Under the pieces are notes generated by a model that was not told the DNA's origin, did no database searches, and saw nothing but the letters and a program-made list of their open reading frames with translations. The position numbers and the translations under genes were made by a program. A DNA stretch of 36,548 nucleotides from Streptomyces sp. YIM 98790 (lineage in GTDB: Bacteria; Actinomycetota; Actinomycetes; Streptomycetales; Streptomycetaceae): positions 1 through 36,548 of the forward strand of contig NZ_WTLH01000032.1 in assembly GCF_011421595.1 (NCBI RefSeq), read 5' to 3'. The number at the start of each line of letters is the position of its first letter. Positions within the stretch are counted from its first letter, which is position 1. Positions 7,079-8,770 of this stretch are shown here, piece by piece.

Positions 7079-8404
7079 TCAGAGGCCGAGGATGATCTTG
7101 GCGGTGGTGAAGTAGATGATGAGGCCGGTGGCGTCGACCAGGGTGGTGACCATGGGGGCGGAGACCACGGCCGGGTCGATGCGGAGCCTCTTGGCCAGCA
7201 GGGGCATGGTGCCGCCCACGGTGGAGGCCCAGCCGCAGATGACGATCAGGGTGATGCCGACGATCAGCGCGATGTCGGCGCCGACGAACAGGCCGCCGAT
7301 CAGCGCGCCGACCACGGCGAGCAGGGTGCCCAGCACCAGTCCGGTGCGGCATTCCCGCCAGATGACCCGGAACAGGTCGGAGACCCGGACCTCGCCCACC
7401 GCCAGGGCGCGCACCGCCGCGGTGGCGGCCTGGGCGCCCGCGTTGCCGCCGGCGCCGATCAGCAGCGGGATGAACAGCGCCAGGGCGGTGACCTCCTCCA
7501 GGGTGGCCTCGAAGAAGCGGTTGACCGAGACGGTCAGGGTGGCGGCGACCAGCAGCAGCATCAGCCAGACCGCCCGCGCGCGGGCCAGCCGGAGCACGCC
7601 GACCGACATGTAGTGCCGTTCCAGCGGCTCGGCACCGGACTGCCGGGCGGTGTCCTCGGTGTCCGCGGCCTCGATGACCTCCACCGCGTCGTCGATGGTG
7701 AGCAGGCCGACCAGCCGGTCCTCGCTGTCCACCACCGGCAGGTCGAGCATGTTGGTCTCGCGCATCAGGCGGGCGGCCTGCTCGGCCGGGTCGGTGGCCC
7801 GGGCCCGGGGCGGTTCGGTGTCGACAAGCTGGGCGACCTGCACGTCCGGGTTGCTCAGCACCAGGTCGCGCAGTTCCACGATGCCGGTGAGGCGGCGGCC
7901 GGTGTCCACCACCGGCAGGGTGTAGATGGTCTCGGCGTGCGCGCCGCGCAGCCGCACCACGTCCAGCGCCTCGGCCACGGTCAGGTTCTGCTGGAGCGCC
8001 ACGGTCTCGGGGGTCATGTAGCGGCCGACCGAGCCCTCGGGGTAGCCGAGCAGCGCGGCGGTCATGTGCCGCTCGTGCGCGCTCAGCCCGGCCAGCACCC
8101 GGCGGGCGACCTTGGCCGGCACCTCGCCCAGCATCCGCGCCCGGTCGTCCGGGTCCATGCCCTCGACAAGATCGCGGAACGCCTGGTCACGCAGCCCTTC
8201 CAGGATCTGCTGCTGGTCGACCGGATCGAGTTCCTCGAAGACTTCGAGCGCACGGTCCTTGTCGAGCAGACGGAAGGCGACGACGGAATTCACCGCGTCC
8301 ATCCGCGCGATCTCGTCGGCGATGGAGTAGGCGGGCTGGGTCTCCAGCCACTCCATGGCCCCGGCGAGGTCGTGCTCCTCCAGCAGGACAGGCAGATGCG
8401 TCAT
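7079..8404 (-). CDS. mgtE: Magnesium channel/transporter MgtE
   Basis: 441 residues. The cytoplasmic N domain (about 1-120) includes LDPVDQQQILEGL and MDPDDRARMLGEVPAKVARR. Two CBS domains follow (about 125-245; SVGRYMTPETVALQQNLTVA and MLDLPVVDSEDRLVGLLTID). The connecting helix leads into five membrane helices with the signature LLIGAGGNAGAQAATA and the pore-lining TMPLLAKRLRIDPAV region. MgtE proteins are Mg2+-gated channels in which Mg2+ bound by the N and CBS domains closes the pore. The start has a strong AGGGGG site that could be sequestered in the leader. A 160-base leader with a Pro/Arg-rich short ORF precedes it, suggesting Mg2+-responsive control. Confidence 0.95.
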   Translation of the reverse strand: MTHLPVLLEEHDLAGAMEWLETQPAYSIADEIARMDAVNSVVAFRLLDKDRALEVFEELDPVDQQQILEGLRDQAFRDLVEGMDPDDRARMLGEVPAKVARRVLAGLSAHERHMTAALLGYPEGSVGRYMTPETVALQQNLTVAEALDVVRLRGAHAETIYTLPVVDTGRRLTGIVELRDLVLSNPDVQVAQLVDTEPPRARATDPAEQAARLMRETNMLDLPVVDSEDRLVGLLTIDDAVEVIEAADTEDTARQSGAEPLERHYMSVGVLRLARARAVWLMLLLVAATLTVSVNRFFEATLEEVTALALFIPLLIGAGGNAGAQAATAAVRALAVGEVRVSDLFRVIWRECRTGLVLGTLLAVVGALIGGLFVGADIALIVGITLIVICGWASTVGGTMPLLAKRLRIDPAVVSAPMVTTLVDATGLIIYFTTAKIILGL

Positions 8405-8407
8405 GAC

Positions 8408-8483
8408 GGGGTACCCCCTGACAACGGAATGCGGTCACTGAACCATCCGGTGTTCGCGCACACGCCTGGTGTCCCAGGGGCCG
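8408..8483 (-). promoter_or_regulatory. mgtE leader with competing hairpins around the ribosome site
   Basis: In the mgtE transcript, CCCCTG (8480-8475) can pair with CAGGGG (8420-8415), part of the mgtE ribosome site. The same bases can instead enter a local hairpin, CCTGG-GACA-CCAGG (8478-8465). A GGGG-TA-CCCC inverted repeat (8408-8417) also overlaps the ribosome site. Mutually exclusive pairings downstream of a leader ORF are typical of translation-coupled switches. This was drawn by eye and no energies were computed. Confidence 0.4.
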
Positions 8484-8507
8484 TCGCGGCGGCAGCTCGT
8501 CAGGCTG

Positions 8508-8567
8508 TCAGGCGGACCTGGGCGCGGGGGCGCGGCGCCGGGGATGACTGGGAGGCTCGCTGCGCAT
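8508..8567 (-). CDS. Putative 19-aa leader peptide upstream of mgtE
   Basis: A short reading frame with an excellent ribosome site (GGGAGGTGG, with GGAGG ten bases before the ATG) encodes MRSEPPSHPRRRAPAPRSA and ends 103 bases before mgtE on the same strand. It is packed with prolines plus an Arg triplet. Enteric MgtL, the leader peptide controlling the Mg2+ transporter gene mgtA, is also a short Glu-Pro/Pro-rich peptide followed by an Arg triplet. The likeness could be convergent: both would be sequences that destabilise or stall ribosomes at low Mg2+. Translation itself is not proven; the evidence is the strong Shine-Dalgarno site, the composition and the position. Confidence 0.6.
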   Translation of the reverse strand: MRSEPPSHPRRRAPAPRSA

Positions 8568-8770
8568 GACAGCACCACCTCCCGCAGGGACATTGACCTT
8601 CCGCCGAAACCGTTCTTCAGGCTACATCGAGCAGGAAAAGATCATGACAGAAAGTCCGGCATAAAGGACAGCGAATCGGGGAGGATTCACGGAATGTGCG
8701 CCGTCGCGCAACCGGACGCGGGGCATGCTCCGCCGCCCGCCGCCCCCGCAGGGGCCGGTGCGGACGGGGA

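Follow-up and report, generated by a model that had tools for sequence, protein, structure and literature searches.

Early proline or acidic codons of short upstream open reading frames (uORFs), placed in the leader structures of enteric Mg2+ transporter genes, can link ribosome behaviour to transporter expression, as described for the mgtL, corL, and mgtQ systems (PMC11552253, PMC6460261, PMC8092293, PMC11282234). Here I analysed a 36,548-nucleotide stretch of Streptomyces sp. YIM 98790 (contig NZ_WTLH01000032.1; this whole stretch is called the window), in which a 19-codon uORF lies ahead of an mgtE gene. An earlier note, made from the sequence alone, had called this frame an MgtL-like Pro/Arg leader peptide. 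The same leader was found to precede not only mgtE but also, in numerous genomes, corA and, in a single genome, an Nramp-type operon, so there is good support for a role in controlling Mg2+ transport. On the other hand, the leader is not plainly MgtL-like: its acidic residue is replaceable, the Arg triplet shows no conservation, and the codons are under RNA-level constraint as well. The term describes how the leader may work, not membership in a family.

The mgtL uORF, ahead of mgtA in Salmonella and E. coli, resembles the frame studied here in being a short uORF of a structured leader with early acidic and proline codons before a Mg2+ transporter gene (excerpts of PMC11552253, PMC6460261, PMC11282234). 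However, MgtA is an ATPase, the mgtL prolines alternate (codons 3, 5, 7, and 9) while those here form a Pro-Pro pair, and the acidic residues are essential in mgtL but replaceable here. Moreover, enteric bacteria are compared with Actinobacteria, by features and not by homology. The corL uORF of E. coli and Salmonella likewise lies within a stem-loop, ahead of corA, and a mutant favouring access to the corL Shine-Dalgarno (SD) sequence lowers corA expression (excerpts of PMC11552253). It differs in belonging to gamma-proteobacteria, in starting with UUG, and in having only one Pro in the conserved N-terminal part; for corL, involvement of Rho has been demonstrated. The mgtQ uORF, ahead of mgtB in Salmonella, has 8 codons, as do some members here, an AGGAGG SD, and codons in a stem, but it is intergenic in an operon, needs Asp2 and Glu5, and uses its Pro codon through pairing (excerpts of PMC8092293).

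Conserved frames ahead of Mg2+ transporter genes

In the window, the uORF (MRSEPPSHPRRRAPAPRSA*) occupies positions 8508..8567 on the minus strand, the strand of all features below. Its SD, GGGAGGTGG, lies at 8575..8583 (read 8583-8575), and the core codons GAG CCT CCC AGT (Glu-Pro-Pro-Ser) lie at 8547..8558, of which CCTCCC is complementary to the SD. The presumed controlled gene, mgtE (7079..8404; 441 aa; Pfam MgtE_N, CBS, and MgtE), starts at 8404, leaving a gap of 103 bases (8405-8507). Coordinates, translation, SD, and Pfam assignment all agree with the earlier description of a 19-codon ORF with a ribosome site 103 bases upstream of mgtE. The window's own genome has a single match to the leader when up to 2 mismatches are allowed.

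Is this frame conserved? When named genomes were searched with the MgtE protein, 162 loci were confirmed, and the best 80 of them, from Streptomyces and Nocardia, were scanned with a pattern consisting of a GG[AG]GG SD, a start codon (any NTG allowed), two to six codons, one codon, and then CCN CCN AGY. The pattern was found upstream of mgtE in 80 of the 80 loci, with GG[AG]GG at most 18 bases from the start, and the loci share the core [E/D]-P-P-S (GAR/GAC-CCY-CCN-AGY) behind an ATG or GTG start. They comprise 55 distinct leaders of 11-23 codons, starting with ATG (48) or GTG (7). The codon preceding the Pro-Pro pair is GAA in 39, GAG in 14, and GAC in 2 of them; codon 5 is CCT (37) or CCC (18) and never CCG; codon 6 is CCC (44), CCT (7), or CCG (4); and codon 7 is AGT in all but one, which has AGC. 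In contrast, among 16000 upstream regions obtained by first-order resampling, a comparable frame occurred in 1, although this control used a different pattern (ATG/GTG only, one to five codons, E/D/Q before the pair, and any Ser codon after it). A frame by chance is therefore excluded. The 21 closest Streptomyces frames read MRSEPPSH... (with Asp replacing Glu in three and Gly replacing Ser in one), and most Nocardia frames read MRSEPPSRRPRG.... As to the conservation that the earlier note had proposed to check, the frame, its start, its SD, and the Pro pair are kept at all of these loci, while the Arg triplet of the window frame is not conserved in relatives.

The association with corA first arose from a gene-blind pattern scan of 296 class genomes. 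Twelve of its 18 matches fell in one genus (f19/g37, probably Micromonospora), where the frames lie about 130 bases ahead of a gene that is CorA by Pfam (run on one protein). The hairpin regions of 78 sequences were used to build a covariance model, R1, which was searched without gene context over overlapping sets of 394 class, 200 family, 246 genus, 120 family, and 296 phylum genomes. The downstream genes were identified with tblastn, using a single MgtE and a single CorA query, and Pfam was run on seven proteins; the large searches used stricter filters, by which weak copies can be lost. At E<=1e-4, R1 matched 72 distinct genomes, with the leader ahead of mgtE in 23 and ahead of corA in 46. 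In the remaining three, the match precedes a displaced corA (G069), precedes an MgtE_N-CBS/Nramp operon (G643), or lies at a contig end (G757), so that the leader stands directly ahead of mgtE, corA, or the Nramp operon in 70 of the 72. Of the 72, 33 are identical to a training row of the model, and some such rows had been chosen at mgtE or corA; the 39 others comprise 25 corA cases, 11 mgtE cases, and the three special cases. Since the leader is found before mgtE, corA, and an Nramp-type operon, it is tied to Mg2+ transport and not to one transporter family.

The matches at E<=1e-4 span ten family labels (f1, f4, f9, f17, f18, f19, f26, f45, f48, and f60), and the f60 match comes from another class (G895, VSSSQPPSPR ahead of corA). 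One match per genome was reported, save for a weak partial second one in G314 (E 0.009); the G257 match is likewise weak (E about 0.009). In the window's genus, 27 of 246 genomes have a match. Relaxing the threshold to E<=1e-3 gave 78 genomes, adding four corA cases and two matches without a transporter that were taken as chance (G219/L202, E 4.8e-4; G666/L219, 3.3e-4); the Pro-Pro pair is present in the other 76. Two further matches above 1e-3 without a transporter (G384/L205 and G274/L206) were also taken as chance, and one of the nine matches of an earlier scan (L089) and a pattern-scan match (G242/L104) look like chance as well.

Some individual loci deserve mention. In G069 (L252), an IS110-like element, recognized by eye, lies between the leader and corA. 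In G643 (L251; genome 67% complete), the leader precedes an MgtE_N-CBS protein gene overlapping an Nramp-family gene whose product has NDAAG in place of the DPGN of Mn/Fe Nramps, a replacement shared with Mg2+-type Nramp relatives. Three other genomes of one genus (G107, G013, and G056; L137, L138, and L139) have a second kind of SD-led short frame ahead of a more distant corA homologue. It reads MDRSHPCSTT... or MDPSRPCSTD..., with AGTC near the start, and is perhaps a sister leader.

The peptide itself varies. A set of 113 distinct entries was compiled by requiring E, D, Q, or R and PP[SG]. Three alternate starts are counted among them, as is L205, a match without a transporter. Codon 4 is Glu or Asp in 97 entries; in the other 16, all of which stand ahead of corA, it is Gln (14) or Arg (2). 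A short uORF in a Mg2+ transporter leader (the frame being known from sequence) and early prolines are shared with the MgtL type, while the required early acidic residues (EPDP) are not. One family has forms of 8-10 codons such as MSQPPSTN, L198 has PPG, and L130 is a degenerate copy that kept the Pro pair, lost the stop codon, and has GGT in place of AGT. Beyond codon 7-12 the sequence varies freely, with a total length of 8 to 30 codons. Among the R1 matches, the start and the Pro pair remain in phase with whole codons gained or lost between them; the earlier pattern-selected sets, unlike the R1 matches, had imposed this phase.

The M-box (RF00380), a Mg2+-sensing leader, also precedes Mg2+ transporter genes, but it is an aptamer of 169 positions. 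Its covariance model gave no match in the window or in the window's own genome. M-boxes were found in 5 of 70 genomes tested, 1 among the 37 genomes that have the uORF and 4 among the 33 that lack it; in G215 (L257), an M-box lies ahead of the corA whose orthologues in other families have the uORF instead. The M. tuberculosis pe20 Mbox with uORF2 is another actinobacterial Mg2+ leader, one that controls a small uORF containing a conserved Pro (PMC12810186), but it needs the M-box aptamer, and its peptide is said to be mycobacteria-specific. Rfam 15 gave no match in the window at the gathering score and chance-level matches at permissive thresholds. A candidate Ms_AS-8 hit over the uORF was rejected (13.4 bits against 48 needed; E 5 and 1.4); it was not seen in the nine relatives searched. 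Searches among open-licence PubMed Central (PMC) papers listed no description of this leader. A Thioalkalivibrio mgtE motif and a gamma-proteobacterial corA motif have been published, both from other bacteria (PMC11109978, PMC6429828).

The uORF hairpin as a candidate switch

How might the leader work? The best explanation, to which I would give an even chance, is that a uORF in an SD-masking hairpin is read by a ribosome pausing at Pro-Pro-Ser (PPS) and thereby sets transporter expression. In this cis-acting leader of Mg2+ transporter genes, the SD of the uORF would pair with codons 4-6 of the frame itself, the start codon being exposed in the loop, and the initiating ribosome would meet PPS (CCY CCN AGU) within the first few codons. 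Quick passage, as opposed to a pause or drop-off at PPS, would determine both whether the hairpin re-forms and how the remaining leader folds or terminates, and thereby the production of the transporter. From the analogy with mgtL, corL, and mgtQ, I infer that the uORF is translated, that ribosomes pause at PPS, and that Mg2+ is the signal; as for its direction, low Mg2+ would weaken ribosomes at PPS and turn the transporter on.

The predicted hairpin of the window spans 8550..8583. The SD (8583-8577) pairs with uORF codons (8556-8550), and an upper stem is formed by 8574-8569 with 8563-8558. Its CCTCC is complementary to the SD and the AUG lies in the loop, so that the fold would mask the uORF's own SD. 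The fold energy is -21.7 kcal/mol (z -2.6), with 2 of 200 shuffles as stable, and most relatives fold similarly. Exchanging hairpin halves between leaders raised the energy from -17.3 to -15.6, with 0 of 200 swaps matching the native halves. Sliding the partner strand lowers pairing to 36-53%.

The earlier note had instead proposed mutually exclusive pairings that mask the mgtE SD (AGGGGG, followed by TACCCC; 8414..8419). This was only weakly borne out. A modelled ribosome on PPS raised the predicted access of the main gene's SD only from 0.17 to 0.24 (mean over 32 leaders); the strong fold lies over the uORF's own SD. A switch in which the uORF anti-SD pairs with the main SD was also tried and set aside, having only a small effect in the simple model. 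In many leaders, a stretch complementary to the main SD comes directly after it (GGGGGTTCCCC, GGGAGCTCCC; window 8405-8419 and relatives). Of 108 leaders with the uORF, 58 had such an anti-SD-like spacer, compared with 3 of 26 leaders lacking the uORF; the starts were guessed by script, the rows are not independent, and the local fold energy is no lower (-6.8 vs -7.5).

Several results weigh against the explanation by a masked uORF and pausing at PPS. Folding of the 32 leaders in the simple model gave no clear switch at the main SD. Paired cells amount to 88.8%, compared with 88.3% in column shuffles (64 of 500), with no covariation beyond shuffles, and the covariation score was equalled by 31 of 500 column shuffles. 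Within groups, the half-swap test gave 3, 93, 21, 0, and 94 of 300 and was clear in two of the five. The native hairpin is only mildly better than synonymous ones, a median of 19% of which are at least as stable; it beats them at the 5% level in 27 of 109 cases and beats spacer-shuffled versions in 31 of 109. Moreover, many transporter orthologues have no leader: in a corA sample (L110-L136), 14 of 27 loci have it, one has a degenerate copy, one has an M-box, and 11 have none by the patterns used, and in an MgtE sample (L140-L158) 3 of 19 have it and 16 have none by the patterns used. The predicted SD-masking hairpin is supported, not proven.

A -10-like TAGCCT lies 57 bases ahead of the uORF start (8619..8624), and TANNNT occurs near -51 in close Streptomyces relatives. 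If this box is the -10 element, the leader would begin about 40-50 bases ahead of the uORF. A strict sigma-70 scan gave no promoter match for the leader. An intrinsic terminator search gave none between the uORF and mgtE; the single site found (8690-8671) precedes the leader.

Codon constraint and alternative explanations

Codon choice bears on whether the peptide matters. At the same loci, CCT accounts for 19 of 1469 Pro codons in the mgtE genes, compared with 37 of 55 at uORF codon 5, and AGT for 55 of 1153 Ser codons, compared with 54 of 55 at codon 7. Both being rare in the same mgtE genes, selection on nucleotides is indicated. GAA makes up 39 of 53 Glu codons at uORF codon 4, compared with 549 of 2262 in the mgtE genes of these loci; the A of this codon can pair with the U of the SD. 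Constraint on the nucleotides is no less evident than constraint on the peptide, and both seem to be present. The near-invariant AGT after the Pro pair (window 8547-8549 and relatives) is not explained by the hairpin; no partner for the AGU was seen by eye, and no systematic search was made.

These codon preferences, together with the half-swap result, are what would be expected if the RNA alone were the sensor. The hairpin or a larger fold would then sense Mg2+ directly or act as a stability switch, the peptide would be irrelevant, and PPS would be encoded incidentally by the anti-SD CCUCC and by an AGU that the RNA requires. I consider this unlikely. The starts are ATG or GTG only, the frames close early, and the start and the Pro pair stay in phase despite gains and losses of whole codons. 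Furthermore, CCT-CCY is kept where the SD is GGCAGG, giving a C-C mismatch (L194, L203, and L245), and CCC at codon 5 breaks an A-U pair of the hairpin in 18 of the 55 leaders.

A strict MgtL-type mechanism, in which an acidic residue beside prolines destabilizes the ribosome intrinsically, would agree with the Glu or Asp that precedes the pair in 97 of the 113 entries and in all 55 distinct mgtE leaders, and MgtL EPDP and MgtQ Asp/Glu act in this way in the excerpts of PMC11282234 and PMC8092293. However, changing Glu2/Asp4 to Gln/Asn abolishes the effect in MgtL (excerpts of PMC11282234), while Gln or Arg stands naturally in the corA leaders mentioned above. Since there is also a single acidic residue here and no repeat, I regard this mechanism as improbable.

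A sensor of proline translation, responding to elongation factor P (EF-P), charged tRNA-Pro, or m1G37 of tRNA-Pro instead of Mg2+ itself and feeding into Mg2+ uptake, has an equally small probability in my estimate. The Pro-Pro pair is present at all 80 mgtE loci, and codon 5 is solely CCT or CCC, codons read mainly by one tRNA-Pro isoacceptor, although SD pairing explains the same codon limits. EF-P acts on mgtL and mgtP (excerpts of PMC6460261). This alternative overlaps with the best explanation, a ribosome pausing at PPS in a masked uORF. If the frame instead encoded a small protein with a function of its own, the conserved N-terminus would be accounted for, but this is very improbable, given the free variation in sequence and length beyond codon 7-12 and the RNA-like constraint on codon choice.

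Magnesium uptake control in actinobacteria

The same leader ahead of two unrelated kinds of Mg2+ transporter suggests a movable control of magnesium uptake in actinobacteria. In its full form, this is a tentative proposal that I think somewhat more likely wrong than right: a movable cassette, with the uORF start in its own SD:anti-SD hairpin and PPS(AGU) as the reading head, would have been placed, across ten or more actinobacterial families and as a rule once per genome, before MgtE or CorA and in one case before an Nramp-type operon, and would sense Mg2+ via ribosomes at PPS without requiring acidic residues, distinct from MgtL. If true, translation-based control of Mg2+ uptake would extend from enteric bacteria to a second phylum, and the leader would mark which transporter each species regulates. 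It would also offer a natural test of whether an early Pro-Pro alone, with no required acidic residue, makes the ribosome Mg2+-sensitive, and would give a direct handle on Mg2+ sensing in antibiotic-producing actinobacteria.
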